Source: Anaerosoma tenue
GTDB lineage: Bacteria > Actinomycetota > Coriobacteriia > Anaerosomatales > Anaerosomataceae
Assembly (NCBI RefSeq): GCF_023161965.1
Contig: NZ_JALNTY010000001.1
Location: forward strand, 124,001 to 188,000
Length of the DNA stretch: 64,000 nucleotides
Reading direction: 5' to 3'
Positions 20,023 through 30,922 of the stretch are shown here, piece by piece. The position numbers were made by a program, and so were the translations under genes. Each line of letters starts with the position of its first letter. Position 1 is the first letter of the stretch. Below the pieces are notes generated by a model. That model ran no database searches. It saw only the letters and a list, made by a program, of their open reading frames with translations, and was not told the origin of the DNA.

Positions 20023-21090
20023 ATGTCACGCCTGCGAGAAGGACGGGTCCTCCCGTTGGCCGTCGTGCTTGTCATGACGATCTTCTGGGCTGCATCGTCT
20101 CGCCCTGCGGCGGCCTATCCCGACTGGGATCCCGCGCCCTCTCCACTGGCCGCGGAGGACTGCGACCACTGCCACTCGGCCACGAGCTCGGGCGGTACCG
20201 CGGAATGGGACGGCAGTGGACCGCATGGAGGCTACCTCACCAGCACGAACAAGTGTCAGTTGTGTCACGTGGTGCACAAGTCGCCGAGTGATTCGGTGGT
20301 GTTGCTGCGTACCACCACGGTGACCGGGATGTGCATCATGTGCCATGACGGCACCGGGAGCTCGATCGGCGTCTACTCTACGATCGAGGCTCATGGGGGC
20401 ACCGTGGCCGCCGAGCACCGTGTGGAGGTAACCGACATCGTCCCGGGCGGATCGAGCGCCCTGGGCAGCGCGCTTGGGTGCTCCGACTGCCACTCCGTAC
20501 ACGGTTCGAACACGGTCGCTCCTTTCTTGCGGGACAGTGGTCGCGCGTACGCAGCGGATGAGTACGTCATCTCAGACTGCCTGCTTCGCAACGACGTACG
20601 TTCCGGGGTGCCGGACTCCGTTCCCGAGTACGGAGCGCTCTGGTGCGCAGCCTGTCACGATGAGCGCCACTCCGGGTCGGGCACGACCGTCAACCATCCT
20701 GTGGACGGCGATTCGTCGTGGGGCTACGGGGACGTTCGCTCAACGATCCGTACGGACGACTCCTGGCGCGAGGCGCTCACCGGGGGAGTGGCTACAGGCA
20801 TGGGTCGCACGAACAGCGGTTACCTGATGGCACCTGTGGAGTCTGCCGGTGACGGGCGGATCGAGGAGGTCGACCGGCGTGATCCCATGTGCCAGCAGTG
20901 CCACGAGGACGCCCGAGACGTGGAAACCGTGTTCAGTGCCGATTACACGATGCGGGGGACCGAACCCTGGAACACACCCGTGAACCCGGTCTTCGTCACG
21001 TTCCCGCATCAGACGACCAACGACATGCTGTTGGTTGAGCAGTACGACGACCTCTGCACGAACTGCCACCCGGTGACGGGACTGCCTTAG
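20023..21090 (+). CDS. Secreted seven-haem c-type cytochrome
   Basis: A 355-residue exported protein with a signal peptide (LPLAVVLVMTIFWAASSRPAAA, cleavage near residue 32) and seven CxxCH haem c sites: CDHCH 47, CQLCH 78, CIMCH 104, CSDCH 153, CAACH 208, CQQCH 290, CTNCH 345. Several are followed by VHK, VHG or DxxH residues that may serve as distal ligands. The sequence between sites is poorly conserved and no named subfamily could be assigned, though it resembles doubled-CxxCH proteins. Start ATG is at 20023. It ends about 80 bp before the giant cytochrome and is probably co-transcribed. Role inferred: electron transfer outside the cytoplasmic membrane. Confidence 0.9.
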   Translation: MSRLREGRVLPLAVVLVMTIFWAASSRPAAAYPDWDPAPSPLAAEDCDHCHSATSSGGTAEWDGSGPHGGYLTSTNKCQLCHVVHKSPSDSVVLLRTTTVTGMCIMCHDGTGSSIGVYSTIEAHGGTVAAEHRVEVTDIVPGGSSALGSALGCSDCHSVHGSNTVAPFLRDSGRAYAADEYVISDCLLRNDVRSGVPDSVPEYGALWCAACHDERHSGSGTTVNHPVDGDSSWGYGDVRSTIRTDDSWREALTGGVATGMGRTNSGYLMAPVESAGDGRIEEVDRRDPMCQQCHEDARDVETVFSADYTMRGTEPWNTPVNPVFVTFPHQTTNDMLLVEQYDDLCTNCHPVTGLP

Positions 21091-21169
21091 ACGACTGAAG
21101 GTGTTGGCCGGGCGTGAATGGATGACCGGACCGGAAGACGGTGCTGCGAGACTCGCAAGGGAAGAGATG

Positions 21170-24100
21170 ATGAAGCGTTCAGGCGCTATGCGTATTGCGG
21201 TCCGGTCGTTCGTGGCGCTGGCGATCGCGCTGGCGGTGGTCCTGCTTGTGGCGCCGGGCGACAGCACGCCGTCACAGGATGGGCCAGTGAGTGACGATGC
21301 GGTCGCTGACGCGCGGATCGGCGGCGGTTCCCTCGACGCGGAGGTGCACTCGCTTCAGGAGTCCCCTATGCCCTCCGATGGCGTGACACGATCCGGCGAC
21401 GCGATCGCGGTGGAGCCGCCACCCGTCGCAGCGGTGATTCCCGATGTCGATGCAGGGGAGGCCGAGTCCCCGGCGCCCGGCGATCCGGCGGAGGGCTCCG
21501 ATGATCCGGCCGAGGATCCTGCCGATCCAGCCGACGAGCCCGCTGATCCCGGCGATGATCCCCCCGGTTCCGGTGACGAGCCGGACGATCCTGCTGATAC
21601 CCCCACTGACCCTGGCGAGGAGCCCGCCGACCCGGGCGCGGACCCCGGCGATGATCCGGACGCACCGGCAGAGCCGCCGTCGACGCCGGCTGCGCCAGGC
21701 GTTGTCACCGCCGTAACGTGCGTCTCTGGTGACATGACGGACATCGTGCGGTTCGACCTGCCTGACGATGGTGGTGACGTGAGCGCCATCGTGCTCTCCC
21801 GTGCCCTTTCTCCGGAAGGACCGTACGAGGAGGTGCGCTCGGCCGACGGTGGTGTACGGGAGATCCGTCATGCGGTCGAGTCCACGGGCACGGCGTACTA
21901 CCGCGTCCATGCCGAGGGCCCCGGCGGGCAGGGCGAGAACAGCGCGATCGTGCGTAACGCAGTGGTGGAGGCGACGGCAGAGGTAGGCGTGGACGGGTAC
22001 ACGATCCGGTCCTCCAACGGCGAGATCGTCCTGGCATTCCCCGCAGGCGCGTACGAGGAGACGACGACCGTGAACGTCCGGGAGGTATCCGGGTCCCCGG
22101 TCGGCGGTATCCTCGCGTTCGCCGGCATCTACGACATCGAACCGTCCGGCCCGCTTGGGAAGCCTGTGCTCCTGTCGGTGGCGTTCGACCTGGCGGTGAC
22201 GCATTTCCAGGTCTCTGACGCGTTGCTTCGGGCGGCGGGTCTGTTCACGTTCGATGACGGCGCGTGGGTTTCCGGAGCCGACCACATCATCGCCGAGGGT
22301 GGCTACATCACCGGCTCGGTGGATCACTTCTCGGCATGGACTCCCGGCTCCCCGTCGCCTCACGGCACCAACGCCGAGGCCAGCGACTACTGCTCCGGCG
22401 TCTGTCACGACCTCAGCACGTATCCCGGTTCGTCTGTCCGGTACGACACCCGGGACCCCCAGGTCTGCTACAACTGTCACGGTAACGCCGATGCCGCCGA
22501 CCCGCCTCGCAGCGGCGAAGGCGACAACGTGCAGGCGGAGTTCTTCGACGTGGCGGGGCAGAGCGTGCCGGCGATGTCCTCGCGTCACCCGGTGGCCAAC
22601 GGCGGTTTCTACTGCACGCTGTGCCACGATCCCCACGGCACGTCATCCGATTCCCCCGGGCTGCTCAGGGCGTGGGACCCTGCTACAGGCGGTTACGTGC
22701 AAGGCGGCGCCGGAACCGCGCCCGGCAACGCGTACTGCTGGACCTGCCACGGACCGAGCAGCAACCGCCGCGTCAACTACTACGTGAACGGCTACTACAG
22801 CAGCACCGGTGGTGACCACAAGACGCTCCTTGAGGGGACGCCTCACGCCTCGCTTTCCACAACGGGCGGCACGATCGCCTGTCTCGCCTGCCACGTCTCG
22901 CACGGTTCCGTGTCCAGCTCGCTGGCAAAGGTGGGAGACGTGGCGGGTGCAGCCGCAACGGGCAACGACCAGAGCCTCTGCCTCGCGTGTCACGCAGACG
23001 CATCAGGCGGGTATTCGGGTGGCGCGGCGTACGGCATGACCAGACACTCCTCGGTGGCGGTCTCAAGCGTCGCCGCAACGGGATGGCCCACGTCCGACTC
23101 GGCGACGGGCTCCTGCCAGAACTGCCACGATCCGCACGGAGGGGCCGGCGGACAGTACCTGAGGGCGTCCGGTGCGGACCTGTGCCACGGCTGTCACGAT
23201 GTCGCCGGCCTGTCCTACCCGGCCGACTACTCCTATCAGGGTACTGCGGCGTACGGCGCATCGGGTCACGCGGGTCTCACGGGCACGCTCGGGTATCTCG
23301 GCTTGAGCACCACCAGCGAGGGTTTCGCGGCATGGCAGTCGAGCGCCATGCCCACACCGTCGGCACCCGGCACACCGATCACCGACGCTGGGGCGATCGA
23401 TCAGGTTCGCTCGATGGACGGGTCTCGGCTGCGCACGCTGCTGCAGGGGACGACCGGGTCGGACGACTACCAGATGTTCCGCTTCAAGGTGCCCGCGCCG
23501 AGCGCCGAGGTGGTGAACGCCACACTGCGCTGGGCCGGCTATGGCGAGGAGACGGCGGGGTATCCCGTCACGCTCTCGGTCTGGTCGGCCACCGCGTTGG
23601 CGTGGGAGCAGGCGGCAAGCCAGGTGATGGGCACGCAGCAGCTCGTGACGGTCCCACTTCGGCCCGCCGACCATATGGATGCCGAGGGATACGTGTACTT
23701 CCTTGCCGGGGCGCGCCATGTGGTGGACGGCGAACTCATCTCAGGCCCCACGTTCACCAAGGTCAGCGACACGTCCATCAAGGTCGAGTGGACCACAGCC
23801 GGTAACACGTCAAGCTGGGTGGACTACGGGACCACCACCGCGTATGGCAGCAGCGCCGGGACCGGGACCCGCACGACATCCCACTCGGTCACGGTGACCG
23901 GGCTGACCGCCGGCACCTGGCACTTCCGCGTCCGTTCCACCTCGCCACAAGGCGAGGACTACGTATCCGGGGACTACGCATACGGGTTCCCCATGCCCAA
24001 GCTCACGACTCCGTATCCTGCGAGCCACGTATACGATGGGACCACGGTGTCGCGCTCGTTCTACTGGGAAGCGATGAGCGGTGCGGCCGGTCCCTACGAG

Positions 24101-27100
24101 TACCGGTTCCAGCTGTGGCGCGACGGCTCGCTGTTGATCGACGCGCCGTGGGGCTCTTACACGTCGTACACGTACAGCGACATCCGTGATGTGGCCAGCT
24201 ACGCCTGGCGTGTCGAGGTGCGGGACGCACAGGGTCTGTCGTACGGATGGTCCGTGTGGCACCGCTTCTACGTGTATGAGGACTCCGGCTCCTGCCCGTT
24301 CCTGTTCACCTGGGACGGGGAGCGGTTCGCCTTCGAGGCCGACCTGTTCGGTCCCGGCAAGCTGGCGCTCAAGACCAAGAGCGGCTACATGAAGCCCACC
24401 CCTGATGACGTCTACGTCCTCGCGCACGAGCCGCAGCTCGTCGACGGACGCATCGACCTGCGGCTTGTGGAGGAGCGCTTCGAGACCGACTACCTCGACG
24501 AGCTCGCCCTCTACGCCATCGACGTGCCGGAAGGCCGCGACGTCTATGCCGAGAAGCGCGAGGCGGGAGGCGCAGCCTTCGGGGGCGTGACAAGCGTGCT
24601 GCATACCGTGGCGCGCGAGATGGCGTCCCCGGTCTCGGCGGTCCACACCCAGACGGGTCGTGACGTGCTTGCGCTCGTGGCCGCCGACGACGGCGAGCAG
24701 GTCGTCCTCAACGAGGACCGCAACGAGGACTTCACCTACCAGACCATCGAGCTCGACCTGGGAGAGGTGGCGGGCGCCGGGCAGCTCAAGGTCGTGATGG
24801 ACGCGGTCTCGATGTTCCCGGACACCCCGGCCGGCACCGCGCGTGCCTCGACCTTCGGGCCCCGCACCAGGCTCGAGGTGCAAGACGCCGCCGGCGCGTG
24901 GGTGGCGGTGCCGGCCTCCGCAGGCGCGCTTCCCAAGCCGCCGGAGTTCAGCCGCCCCTACGTCTTCGACCTGAGCGACATCTGGGTCTCGGAGAGCAGG
25001 AAGGTCCGCTTCACGTTCCTGATGAAGACCTACGTCGACTGGATCGCGATCGACACCACAGAAGACCTGCCGGTCGCGGTGACCGAGGTGCCGCTTGCCT
25101 CCGCGGTCCTCACCGAGCGCGGCTACGACCCGAAGTCCTCCGACGGGGAGATCTACGAGTACGTCTACGGTGAGCCGAGCGGGCGCACCGGCTACTTCCC
25201 CGGCGCCTATACGAGACTCGGCGAGGTCGCCCCGCTGCTCGCCGCCACAGACGACATGTTCGTCATCTACGGCGGCGGCGACGAGCTGCAGCTGTCCTTC
25301 GAGACGCCCGACGCACCCGCAGACGGCACCTCGCGCCGCTACGCCGTCCACACCAACGGCTACTACAAAGACGCCAAGACCGACGTGGACACCACGGTGG
25401 AGCCGCTGCCCTTCGCCGCGATGAGCACGTTCCCCTACGGCGCAGACGAGCACTACCCCGACGACCCCGAACATGAGGCCTACCGCGCCGAGTGGAACAC
25501 GCGCGTGAAGAGCGGGGGAGCCTCTGTGGTCGCGCAGATCGCGGGACCTGCGAGCCTGGTACCCAGGCTGACGGGGGTCCACGGGTGGGTCGGGGCTGCG
25601 CTCGCGACCGTGTCGGCCGATGTGGAGCCCGTGGCCGAGATAGCCGGCTCCGCCGATACCGTTGCCGTGGAGGGGTATCCCGTCGACCACCGATCGCTCA
25701 ACACCGACCTCGTCTCCCTGGATGTGTCGTTCACGGGTGCCGCGGGCGGGGGAGAGTGCGGGGTGTGCCACAACGTCCACGGTGGCTCGGAGAGCGGTAT
25801 CGCTCTCGATGGTGGTCGCGCCGCGAGCGACGGTCGTACGTGTACCGCCGACGGCACGGGCGGCTGTCACAGCAATGCCGCCAACTCCGCCTCCGGTATC
25901 GACATCCACGATCGTTTCACCGCGAACGCTGATCCTCGCGCGCACCATGACGTCTTCGCGTCGGACCAGGTGAAGACGGGCAGCAGGATCGGGTGCGCCG
26001 ACTGCCACGACCCCCACACCAACAACAGCGAACAGCGCTACTCGGATCCCGACGCGATCTCTCAGCCGGTGAGTTCGGCTCTGGGCTCTCTCATCGGTGA
26101 GGATGGCTCGGTGTACATGCTCGTGGGCGCGGCCCATGATGGCGTACCGCCGGTGATCAGCGGCGCGCGGTTGAACGGTGCAGGGGACCAGTATCTCTCG
26201 CCGACGATCACGTGGACCACCGACGAGAAGGCCACGTCGTGGGTCGACTGGGGTCTGACGACCGCGTACGAGATGGGCAACGCGAGCGCGGGAAGCCCGT
26301 TCGGCAACGACACCCTCGTGACGGCGCACTCCGTGCAGATGACCGGGCTGCAGGATGGTGTCGTGTACCACTATCGCATCAGGACCGCCGACGCACTCGG
26401 GAACGTCGCGTACTCGGCCGACATGACCTACGTTCCAGTGGCGCCTCCAGCAGCACCGGTGATGAACGATCTGGTCTCCGTGTCGGGCACCGGCTGGGGT
26501 CCGATCACCGCTACTCTGGGGTGTACGCCCACCACATCCAGCGACGGTCACGCAGTCCAGTACCAGTTCAGGGTGGACGGCAGCTCGGTGTACGTGTCGG
26601 GATGGCTGGACTCCACGAGCTTCACCACGCCGGCGTGGCTGTACACGGGGACCCACTATGCGCAGGTGCGCGCCCGTGACGCCGTTCATACTGACGCGAT
26701 CTCCGCATGGTCGGCGGCCGACCACTTCGATGTCCTGTACGCGGACGCCTCCGGCTCCTGCCCGTTCCTGTTCACCTGGGACGGGGAGCGGTTCGCCTTC
26801 GAGGCCGACCTGTTCGGTCCCGGCAAGCTGGCGCTCAAGACCAAGAGCGGCTACATGAAGCCCACCCCTGATGACGTCTACGTCCTCGCGCACGAGCCGC
26901 AGCTCGTCGACGGACGCATCGACCTGCGGCTTGTGGAGGAGCGCTTCGAGACCGACTACCTCGACGAGCTCGCCCTCTACGCCATCGACGTGCCGGAAGG
27001 CCGCGACGTCTATGCCGAGAAGCGCGAGGCGGGAGGCGCAGCCTTCGGGGGCGTGACAAGCGTGCTGCATACCGTGGCGCGCGAGATGGCGTCCCCGGTC

Positions 27101-29032
27101 TCGGCGGTCCACACCCAGACGGGTCGTGACGTGCTTGCGCTCGTGGCCGCCGACGACGGCGAGCAGGTCGTCCTCAACGAGGACCGCAACGAGGACTTCA
27201 CCTACCAGACCATCGAGCTCGACCTGGGAGAGGTGGCGGGCGCCGGGCAGCTCAAGGTCGTGATGGACGCGGTCTCGATGTTCCCGGACACCCCGGCCGG
27301 CACCGCGCGTGCCTCGACCTTCGGGCCCCGCACCAGGCTCGAGGTGCAAGACGCCGCCGGCGCGTGGGTGGCGGTGCCGGCCTCCGCAGGCGCGCTTCCC
27401 AAGCCGCCGGAGTTCAGCCGCCCCTACGTCTTCGACCTGAGCGACATCTGGGTCTCGGAGAGCAGGAAGGTCCGCTTCACGTTCCTGATGAAGACCTACG
27501 TCGACTGGATCGCGATCGACACCACAGAAGACCTGCCGGTCGCGGTGACCGAGGTGCCGCTTGCCTCCGCGGTCCTCACCGAGCGCGGCTACGACCCGAA
27601 GTCCTCCGACGGGGAGATCTACGAGTACGTCTACGGTGAGCCGAGCGGGCGCACCGGCTACTTCCCCGGCGCCTATACGAGACTCGGCGAGGTCGCCCCG
27701 CTGCTCGCCGCCACAGACGACATGTTCGTCATCTACGGCGGCGGCGACGAGCTGCAGCTGTCCTTCGAGACGCCCGACGCACCCGCAGACGGCACCTCGC
27801 GCCGCTACGCCGTCCACACCAACGGCTACTACAAAGACGCCAAGACCGACGTGGACACCACGGTGGAGCCGCTGCCCTTCGCCGCGATGAGCACGTTCCC
27901 CTACGGCGCAGACGAGCACTACCCCGACGACCCCGAACATGAGGCCTACCGCGCCGAGTGGAACACGCGCGTGAAGAGCGGGATCCAGGGTGGCGACGCT
28001 GCGGTTGCGGCGACTGCATCCGCATCTGAAGCGGCGCCCACCGTATGGCGCACGGCGCACGTCGATTCTGCGGCCGCACCGCAGGCGCTCCAGTACTCGG
28101 TGGACACCGACGTGATACGGGTGATCGCTTACACCGACGGCGTTCCTGCCGTCCACGCGCCCGCAGCGGGATGGGAGACGTCTTCGCATACTGCGTCAGC
28201 GCCAACGCCGGCCTCGCCCGGATCGCCTGTGGATGCCGCGGCGCTCGGCCAGGTCTCGGTGTCGGACGACGCGTACTGGCGTACGGACCTGACGGCGGTC
28301 GACGGCGAGTGGAACTGGCAGGTCGTGAGGTTCGATCTGGATGCCGGCGCCGTGTACCAGCTCGATGGCCTCGCGCTCGACTGGGAGGGTCACGGTGAAC
28401 CGACACCCGGGTACCCGACCGCACTGTATGTCTGGGATCCCGAGAGTGGTGCGTGGGCGGAGCTCTCACGTGCGGACATGCCCGTGGACCGGAGGGTGCA
28501 GGTGCAGCGCAGCGCGGTGAGCGATGGGTACTGTCTCGCGTGCCATGATGGAGACGCCCCGGAGGGGGTCGTCATTCCCGGGTCGGTGGGCGATGTGGGC
28601 GCAACGTGGGCGACGGACTTCCACGGCGGCCGTGCGGGGAACGGATTCGGAGACGCGGGCCTCAAGTTCCCATACAGCCGTGGGCAGTCGCCACTATCAT
28701 GCGCGACATGCCACGACACGCACGGGTCGGCCAGTCTCTATCACGTGCCGGAGGTCGTGAACGGGACATCCGTTCCTACGATCACCACGAGCGGGATGGC
28801 CCCCCTGTGCAAGGCGTGCCATGAGGGAGCTACGTACGACTGGCACCTCGATACGGCCTGCTGGTGTCACTACGTGCCGCTGTGGGAGCCCGTGTACCAC
28901 GATGCTGCCTTCGAGTTGCACGACGGGATCGACTGCCTGCAGTGCCATGGGCACGGGAAAGGGTCGACCCATCCGGCGGTGGATTGCGAGGACTGTCATG
29001 GCAGCGCGCCACGGGGCGTGCGCGCCTTCTAA
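21170..29032 (+). CDS. Giant multidomain multihaem c-type cytochrome (2620 residues)
   Basis: An exported protein with an N-terminal hydrophobic helix (about 10-32) and a Pro/Asp-rich linker (about 95-175). A ZU5-like beta domain (about 265-390) follows. Fourteen CxxCH haem sites fall in three clusters: residues 433, 482, 523, 571, 604, 649, 672; 1530, 1609; and 2455, 2511, 2547, 2589, 2606. Irregular candidates are CSGVCH (408), CWCH (2564) and a CX7CH (1558). Between clusters lie two fibronectin-III-like domains (...SSWVDYGTTTAYG; ...TSWVDWGLTTAYE), each followed by a beta domain and then a 411-residue unrecognised module starting CPFLFTWDGERFAFEADLFGPGKL. The two modules (1039-1449, 1861-2271) appear identical. 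No C-terminal anchor is visible. ATG 21170 follows AAGGGAAG; ATG 21167 is equally possible. Role inferred: long-range extracellular electron transfer or a surface redox scaffold. Confidence 0.88.
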   Translation: MKRSGAMRIAVRSFVALAIALAVVLLVAPGDSTPSQDGPVSDDAVADARIGGGSLDAEVHSLQESPMPSDGVTRSGDAIAVEPPPVAAVIPDVDAGEAESPAPGDPAEGSDDPAEDPADPADEPADPGDDPPGSGDEPDDPADTPTDPGEEPADPGADPGDDPDAPAEPPSTPAAPGVVTAVTCVSGDMTDIVRFDLPDDGGDVSAIVLSRALSPEGPYEEVRSADGGVREIRHAVESTGTAYYRVHAEGPGGQGENSAIVRNAVVEATAEVGVDGYTIRSSNGEIVLAFPAGAYEETTTVNVREVSGSPVGGILAFAGIYDIEPSGPLGKPVLLSVAFDLAVTHFQVSDALLRAAGLFTFDDGAWVSGADHIIAEGGYITGSVDHFSAWTPGSPSPHGTNAEASDYCSGVCHDLSTYPGSSVRYDTRDPQVCYNCHGNADAADPPRSGEGDNVQAEFFDVAGQSVPAMSSRHPVANGGFYCTLCHDPHGTSSDSPGLLRAWDPATGGYVQGGAGTAPGNAYCWTCHGPSSNRRVNYYVNGYYSSTGGDHKTLLEGTPHASLSTTGGTIACLACHVSHGSVSSSLAKVGDVAGAAATGNDQSLCLACHADASGGYSGGAAYGMTRHSSVAVSSVAATGWPTSDSATGSCQNCHDPHGGAGGQYLRASGADLCHGCHDVAGLSYPADYSYQGTAAYGASGHAGLTGTLGYLGLSTTSEGFAAWQSSAMPTPSAPGTPITDAGAIDQVRSMDGSRLRTLLQGTTGSDDYQMFRFKVPAPSAEVVNATLRWAGYGEETAGYPVTLSVWSATALAWEQAASQVMGTQQLVTVPLRPADHMDAEGYVYFLAGARHVVDGELISGPTFTKVSDTSIKVEWTTAGNTSSWVDYGTTTAYGSSAGTGTRTTSHSVTVTGLTAGTWHFRVRSTSPQGEDYVSGDYAYGFPMPKLTTPYPASHVYDGTTVSRSFYWEAMSGAAGPYEYRFQLWRDGSLLIDAPWGSYTSYTYSDIRDVASYAWRVEVRDAQGLSYGWSVWHRFYVYEDSGSCPFLFTWDGERFAFEADLFGPGKLALKTKSGYMKPTPDDVYVLAHEPQLVDGRIDLRLVEERFETDYLDELALYAIDVPEGRDVYAEKREAGGAAFGGVTSVLHTVAREMASPVSAVHTQTGRDVLALVAADDGEQVVLNEDRNEDFTYQTIELDLGEVAGAGQLKVVMDAVSMFPDTPAGTARASTFGPRTRLEVQDAAGAWVAVPASAGALPKPPEFSRPYVFDLSDIWVSESRKVRFTFLMKTYVDWIAIDTTEDLPVAVTEVPLASAVLTERGYDPKSSDGEIYEYVYGEPSGRTGYFPGAYTRLGEVAPLLAATDDMFVIYGGGDELQLSFETPDAPADGTSRRYAVHTNGYYKDAKTDVDTTVEPLPFAAMSTFPYGADEHYPDDPEHEAYRAEWNTRVKSGGASVVAQIAGPASLVPRLTGVHGWVGAALATVSADVEPVAEIAGSADTVAVEGYPVDHRSLNTDLVSLDVSFTGAAGGGECGVCHNVHGGSESGIALDGGRAASDGRTCTADGTGGCHSNAANSASGIDIHDRFTANADPRAHHDVFASDQVKTGSRIGCADCHDPHTNNSEQRYSDPDAISQPVSSALGSLIGEDGSVYMLVGAAHDGVPPVISGARLNGAGDQYLSPTITWTTDEKATSWVDWGLTTAYEMGNASAGSPFGNDTLVTAHSVQMTGLQDGVVYHYRIRTADALGNVAYSADMTYVPVAPPAAPVMNDLVSVSGTGWGPITATLGCTPTTSSDGHAVQYQFRVDGSSVYVSGWLDSTSFTTPAWLYTGTHYAQVRARDAVHTDAISAWSAADHFDVLYADASGSCPFLFTWDGERFAFEADLFGPGKLALKTKSGYMKPTPDDVYVLAHEPQLVDGRIDLRLVEERFETDYLDELALYAIDVPEGRDVYAEKREAGGAAFGGVTSVLHTVAREMASPVSAVHTQTGRDVLALVAADDGEQVVLNEDRNEDFTYQTIELDLGEVAGAGQLKVVMDAVSMFPDTPAGTARASTFGPRTRLEVQDAAGAWVAVPASAGALPKPPEFSRPYVFDLSDIWVSESRKVRFTFLMKTYVDWIAIDTTEDLPVAVTEVPLASAVLTERGYDPKSSDGEIYEYVYGEPSGRTGYFPGAYTRLGEVAPLLAATDDMFVIYGGGDELQLSFETPDAPADGTSRRYAVHTNGYYKDAKTDVDTTVEPLPFAAMSTFPYGADEHYPDDPEHEAYRAEWNTRVKSGIQGGDAAVAATASASEAAPTVWRTAHVDSAAAPQALQYSVDTDVIRVIAYTDGVPAVHAPAAGWETSSHTASAPTPASPGSPVDAAALGQVSVSDDAYWRTDLTAVDGEWNWQVVRFDLDAGAVYQLDGLALDWEGHGEPTPGYPTALYVWDPESGAWAELSRADMPVDRRVQVQRSAVSDGYCLACHDGDAPEGVVIPGSVGDVGATWATDFHGGRAGNGFGDAGLKFPYSRGQSPLSCATCHDTHGSASLYHVPEVVNGTSVPTITTSGMAPLCKACHEGATYDWHLDTACWCHYVPLWEPVYHDAAFELHDGIDCLQCHGHGKGSTHPAVDCEDCHGSAPRGVRAF
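24283..25516 (+). repeat. 1234-bp intragenic direct repeat, copy 1
   Basis: From CTCCGGCTCCTG (24283) to AGCGGG (25516). It matches copy 2 at a constant offset of 2466 bp. Translations in all frames of both strands that I compared are the same, so silent positions match too. Encodes the 411-residue CPFLFTWDG module. Confidence 0.93.
26749..27982 (+). repeat. 1234-bp intragenic direct repeat, copy 2
   Basis: Second copy of the repeat at 24283-25516. Similarity stops sharply at both edges: the base before the shared CTCCGG and the base after AGCGGG differ between copies. Confidence 0.93.

Positions 29033-29119: not shown

Positions 29120-30922
<1,803 letters not shown>

Follow-up and report, generated by a model that had tools for sequence, protein, structure and literature searches.

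A giant mosaic multihaem cytochrome with an exact internal repeat in Anaerosoma tenue, a candidate surface electron conduit

How electrons pass across the thick wall of monoderm bacteria is poorly known, and a gene of Anaerosoma tenue, a type strain that can be grown in culture and belongs to a subsurface order for many years represented by DNA alone, puts the question in an unusual form: what is an open frame of 2620 codons with haem motifs spread along it, how was it put together, and what could its product do? The gene lies at 21170..29032 on the + strand of the window, by which we mean the whole stretch analysed (64,000 nucleotides of contig NZ_JALNTY010000001.1), and the other window features located below are on the same strand unless marked antisense. 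A GTG at 21101 is an alternative to the ATG start at 21170; residue numbers are counted from the GTG, and those counted from the ATG are lower by 23. The frame is open to 29032, and a recount of motifs confirmed the 14 CxxCH in 2,620 residues translated from 21170, grouped as 7, 2 and 5, that a preliminary description had reported. When the residues of the protein were shuffled in 2,000 trials, CxxCH arose 0.01 times on average and never more than once in a trial, and GC3 lies between 0.77 and 0.92 across all segments of the gene, whose coding character is continuous. An antisense frame of 1459 amino acids (23810-28189) was dismissed as a GC-rich mirror frame. With multiple CxxCH, c3/c7-like domains and an N-terminal hydrophobic helix the protein has the general features of a c-type multihaem cytochrome, and it passes the curated Pfam cut-offs for Paired_CXXCH_1, Cytochrome_C7 and the MtrC/MtrF II/IV domain. 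Neither NCBIfam nor Pfam returned a full-length match, so that the earlier claim that no named family spans the whole chain stands, and a search of the chain against solved-structure sequences gave no meaningful match. The accessible part of the genome paper for strain M08DHB does not single out the gene (PMC9686372).

The chain is modular and non-compact, as first described, and reads as an anchor, linker and FN3/ZU5-like leader, then haems, two FN3 modules and a module that we call R, then haems, two FN3 modules and R again, and finally a beta module with haems. Segment comparison resolves this order into a super-repeat of haem cluster, FN3, FN3 and R that occurs twice, followed by a beta module and the last haem cluster. 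The N-terminal hydrophobic helix (21188..21256), found by sequence inspection, occupies the same place in four relatives (G006, G021, G025 and G064); it has no obvious cleavage site and appears to be an uncleaved membrane anchor, the only one possible in the chain, as had been proposed. No lipoprotein signal or lipobox was seen, there being no Cys before residue 207 in the GTG frame. A low-complexity linker rich in Pro, Asp and Glu (21395..21697), which contains 21-nt repeats and is Pro-rich in orthologues, is a possible cell-wall spacer. There follow the FN3-like and ZU5-like leader module (21698..22345), with ~50% identity to the leader of a separate cytochrome in the lepA region of G017; haem cluster 1 (22346..23380; seven CxxCH and one CX3CH, eight putative haems); a beta module and two FN3 modules (23381..24283); the first copy of R (24284..25516); haem cluster 2, with two CxxCH and a CX7CH, and two FN3 modules (25517..26749); the second copy of R (26750..27982); and a beta module with haem cluster 3, which has five CxxCH and a CX1CH (27983..29029). 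Along the chain the haem clusters are ~850 and ~840 residues apart, and the C-terminus directly follows haem sites (...CEDCHGSAPRGVRAF). The FN3-like modules score below the Pfam sequence threshold and are clear in the fold search, which bears out their original assignment. The ZU5-like assignment fared less well: ZU5 is absent from the A. tenue copy, and one of six orthologous leaders matches it at 5e-6. Haem regions have a pLDDT below 50 in the AlphaFold model. A fold search with the first half of the chain returned a list dominated by FN3 tandems, and the fold of R is therefore still without a name.

Besides the 14 CxxCH, A. tenue has three non-canonical sites that had been overlooked. The CX3CH (CSGVCH, residue 431, aligned site 435; 22391..22408) is CX2CH, CX3CH or CX5CH across sequences; the CX7CH (CTADGTGGCH, residue 1581, aligned site 1589; 25841..25870) is CX7 or CX6 in 15 of 15 readable sequences; and the CX1CH (CWCH, residue 2587, aligned site 2589; 28859..28870) is CX2CH or CX3CH in relatives. 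Two of the three align with a CX2CH of relatives, and 13 of the 17 aligned sites are invariably CX2CH where the segment is present. The most variable site of all, at aligned residue 2632, is CX2CH in A. tenue. Haem attachment at CX3CH and CX4CH has been proven in MmcA (PMC11024163), and we infer that haem is also attached at the CX1CH and CX7CH of the giant protein; judged from its motifs, the putative total is perhaps 17, split 8/3/6. Several ResB and CcsA-type biogenesis genes are present in the A. tenue genome.

The search of related genomes that the preliminary description had called for recovered the same architecture, whole or partial, in 15 Anaerosomatales genomes besides A. tenue, across five families of the order, and R itself in 20 of the 69 genomes of the order-wide search. 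Since these relatives show the same module order, the giant frame is not an assembly fusion of separate genes, which had been named as the finding that would overturn it. Orthologues are cut at contig ends in G063, G038 and G064, and that of G016 is split. In G006 the frame changes ahead of the last haem cluster, and the cluster itself is found in a different frame immediately before lepA; the G008 orthologue retains a single R, and sites 5-8 of its cluster 1 have been lost. The gene lepA (29120..30922; NCBIfam lepA) marks the place where the giant gene is conserved and is not part of it. A small multihaem cytochrome of 355 residues with seven CxxCH (20023..21090; Pfam Paired_CXXCH_1 and Cytochrome_C7) is encoded ~80 nt upstream, and its counterpart immediately precedes the giant gene in G006, G025, G021 and G008 and lies downstream in G064; it is probably co-transcribed with the giant gene, as its presumed partner. 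This small cytochrome belongs to a family that reaches 10 matches in a single genome (G018). In G024 (L154, contig C51) the giant gene is absent and holA, rpsT, the small cytochrome and lepA are contiguous, with only ~94 nt between the last two.

The same comparisons bear on origin. Some relatives have orthologues with no leader and an ordinary signal sequence directly before the haems, and these lie directly before leuS where leuS is in view. In G016 and G017 a different cytochrome, of ~1,310 residues, occupies the lepA region. It has 11 CxxCH, lacks R and aligns with the A. tenue protein over the leader and first haems; identity is 49-58% to about residue 588 and 20% thereafter, and for the rest of its length the A. 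tenue chain finds its match in the leuS-type body. These alignments suggest that the giant protein is a chimera in which a leader and first haems shared with a lepA-region cytochrome are joined to a leuS-type body. It is a conserved mosaic whose parts also occur apart from each other in other genes. The lepA-region cytochromes lie at L152:2114-6049 and L153:3545-7474, the latter after hemW rather than before.

The modules first described as unrecognised and beta-rich do lack a Pfam relative; their identical double occurrence had escaped notice. An exact in-frame direct repeat of 1,234 nt (24283-25516 = 26749-27982) encodes R, a beta-rich module of 411 residues that is predicted by AlphaFold with high confidence and has no Pfam model and no meaningful match in the solved-structure sequence search. 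Among Anaerosomatales orthologues the identity of the first and second copies, R1 and R2, spans 100% to 35%: the pair of G006 is 99.9% identical in DNA, and in other relatives the proteins are 82, 80, 74, 56, 51-52 and 35-37% identical. R of A. tenue is 20% different from R of G006; since the copies agree within each of these two genomes yet stand 20% apart between them, the pair has been homogenised separately in each lineage. AU tests rejected a tree in which all position-2 R modules are monophyletic (p=3e-5) and one uniting the position-2 R of G016, G017 and G018 (p 2e-59), and because position-2 modules are not monophyletic, R modules have been overwritten or swapped. G017 and G016 are 78% identical in cluster 1, 86% in R1 and 37% in R2, and the position-2 R of G016 is 37% identical to its own R1 and closest (74%) to R of G008, another genus. 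R modules have been overwritten or exchanged recurrently, and conversion, renewed duplication and exchange are candidate mechanisms. A recent strain-private tandem duplication was rejected as a sufficient explanation, because families across the order have two R modules in common and copy identity varies. Direct gene conversion of R2 by R1 was not taken as the sole mechanism, since the G016 values point to exchange too. A search of the available literature for gene conversion in multihaem cytochromes found no paper.

Could the exactness of the repeat be an assembly artefact that masks small differences or extra repeat units? The M08DHB genome (2,107,022 bases in 6 contigs, from MiSeq 2x250 reads, according to PMC9686372) was built from reads too short to span 1.2 kb, and the G064 assembly ends inside the second R; the number of identical R units in A. 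tenue rests on short reads, which cannot prove it. We nevertheless consider an artefact improbable, given that many genomes have the two-R order with R1 and R2 clearly different, that the independent G006 assembly contains a near-identical pair (99.9%), and that collapse is not expected for copies more than a few percent apart.

Outside the Anaerosomatales, close relatives of R (45-63% identity) are C-terminal in cytochromes of Geobacter, Desulfuromonadaceae, other Deltaproteobacteria and Nitrospirae with 1-13 visible CxxCH, and distant relatives (~30-36%) are in proteins without haem, from Acidobacteria, Planctomycetes and archaea, that have TPR, FG-GAP, UnbV/ASPIC or NosD-type domains. Among the best 80 loci, two-R proteins were found only in Anaerosomatales or Actinobacteria records. 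Across L070-L124, R recurs widely, at the C-terminus of many Acidobacteria and Planctomycetes proteins of TPR/FG-GAP type and also in some beta-helix proteins from archaea; Pfam has no model for the module, which merits a family model of its own. Unnamed cytochromes of haem-FN3-R build (L051, L056, L059, L061 and L064-L067) resemble the giant protein in carrying the same R family after haems and FN3-like modules, and differ from it in a single R that ends the protein, a different haem region and no terminal haem cluster. R of the Desulfuromonadaceae cytochrome L051 (residues 1196-1605) groups with G041 inside the Anaerosomatales clade with support of 96/89, a placement that suggests transfer between phyla. 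Near the haem-FN3-R cytochrome of a Deltaproteobacteria MAG, a frame of 1,061 amino acids has 42 CxxCH (L061:11115-14297).

As to function, we lean towards a surface conduit for electrons that is anchored in the membrane, spans the wall and works together with the 7-haem cytochrome, with anchoring, surface exposure, partner and electron route as we propose them here. The giant cytochrome would move electrons between the cytoplasmic membrane side and something beyond the cell wall; tethering and passage through the wall would fall to its helix and Pro/Asp-rich linker, the haem clusters, with 8, 3 and 6 putative haems, would be its three electron-carrying nodes, and the tandem FN3 and R modules could be rigid spacers, binding surfaces or both. 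The mosaic consists of a leader and first haems of the kind seen in the lepA-region cytochrome, followed by two units of haem-FN3-FN3-R build and by the haem cluster at the end. We favor this reading, conduit and mosaic together, because haem motifs are far above chance, 13 of the 17 sites are always CX2CH, ResB/CcsA-type genes are present and the order is conserved in relatives, and because leuS-linked orthologues bear a secretion signal and the small cytochrome is adjacent in five relatives. It is further supported by the FN3 folds, the single-R proteins of metal-reducer lineages, the identity of R1 and R2 in DNA, the AU rejection and the drop to 20% identity after residue 588. Two points count against a conduit. 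According to PMC9686372, A. tenue has 18 multihaem cytochromes and grows with S0 and thiosulfate, did not grow with ferrihydrite, and reduced neither ferrihydrite nor AQDS, so that S0 is the only extracellular acceptor known for it from that source; and the separators of ~850 and ~840 residues may break a continuous electron path. Elemental sulfur or a partner cell as the acceptor is speculation. On a biocathode, multihaem cytochromes were expressed by a related Coriobacteriaceae strain (PMC7943316).

Giant multihaem surface cytochromes are already known, and the present protein is a variant, a mosaic with FN3 and R modules. Like MHC-A/B/C of ANME archaea, which have S-layer or pectin-lyase domains and are proposed to be conduits through the outer layer (PMC9012536), it is very long, is fused to non-haem surface modules and belongs to a cell with no outer membrane, and the role proposed here is similar. 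Unlike them, it has FN3 and R modules and fewer haems per residue; Pfam gave no S-layer family at E<=1, and no C-terminal transmembrane helix, a trait of the ANME S-layer proteins, was seen. With OcwA of Thermincola potens and other Gram-positive surface cytochromes it shares a monoderm surface setting and a presumed terminal function. OcwA is set apart by its description as a compact nonahaem protein about one fifth as long, and a PDB sequence search with the giant protein returned no cytochrome, OcwA-type included, at E<=1. PMC9686372 names homologues of OcwA elsewhere in the A. tenue genome.

Likeness to MtrC/MtrF/OmcA gives some weight to an alternative that we hold to be unlikely, an MtrF-like folded conduit or terminal reductase in which the chain folds back and the clusters pack as one haem chain with the beta modules outside. 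Cluster 1 exceeds the cut-off for the pentahaem domain II/IV signature (PF22113, 39.1 against 30 bits), and MtrC/F proteins likewise alternate beta and haem domains; their separators are far shorter than the 840-850 residues found here. The cell is Gram-positive, the gene has no MtrAB neighbours, the three clusters are unequal and hundreds of residues apart, and NCBIfam and Pfam gave no full-length match to the arrangement of two beta and two pentahaem domains with ten haems. We think it quite unlikely that the protein is mainly an adhesin or structural surface protein that attaches to minerals or to partner cells, its haems being a secondary cargo. That FN3, R and leader make up more than half of the chain, that R is 80% identical between A. 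tenue and G006 and the haem segments 46-62%, and that members of the R family turn up in TPR/FG-GAP/ASPIC and beta-helix proteins devoid of haem would fit such a role, whereas the invariance of 13 haem sites wherever their segment is present would not. The preliminary description had considered a filament as well as a conduit, and end-to-end polymerisation into a cytochrome nanowire is very improbable. In its favor, subunits could stack through the haem clusters that lie towards either end of the body, and pili-like appendages occur on both Anaerosomatales isolates (PMC9686372); those measured in the sister isolate, 0.8-0.9 nm wide, are too thin for the giant protein, haem density is low (at most 17 in 2620 residues), no Pfam or NCBIfam model of the OmcS/OmcE/OmcZ nanowire families matched, and nothing tested indicates polymerisation.

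Returning to the wall-spanning conduit, we also entertain a bolder version, fairly unlikely in our view, in which the spacer-drifting sites (CX1CH/CX2CH/CX3CH/CX5CH, and one site always CX6-7CH) still bind haem and the identical R copies recombine, giving the cells of a single population cytochromes that differ in their number of haem-FN3-FN3-R units, a conduit of variable length. If true, haem binding at drifting spacers implies unusually tolerant or dedicated Ccs-type lyases. The orthologue set offers a giant cytochrome built from separately existing parts together with a natural site-by-site series of haem spacers, and it opens two testable questions, namely which spacers a Ccs-type lyase accepts and how electrons still pass between clusters split by large beta modules. 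Elsewhere in the A. tenue genome, a multihaem cytochrome island (G000:C1:803000-811500) has CxxCH-rich frames of 1,247, 502 and 375 residues beside a ResB gene.
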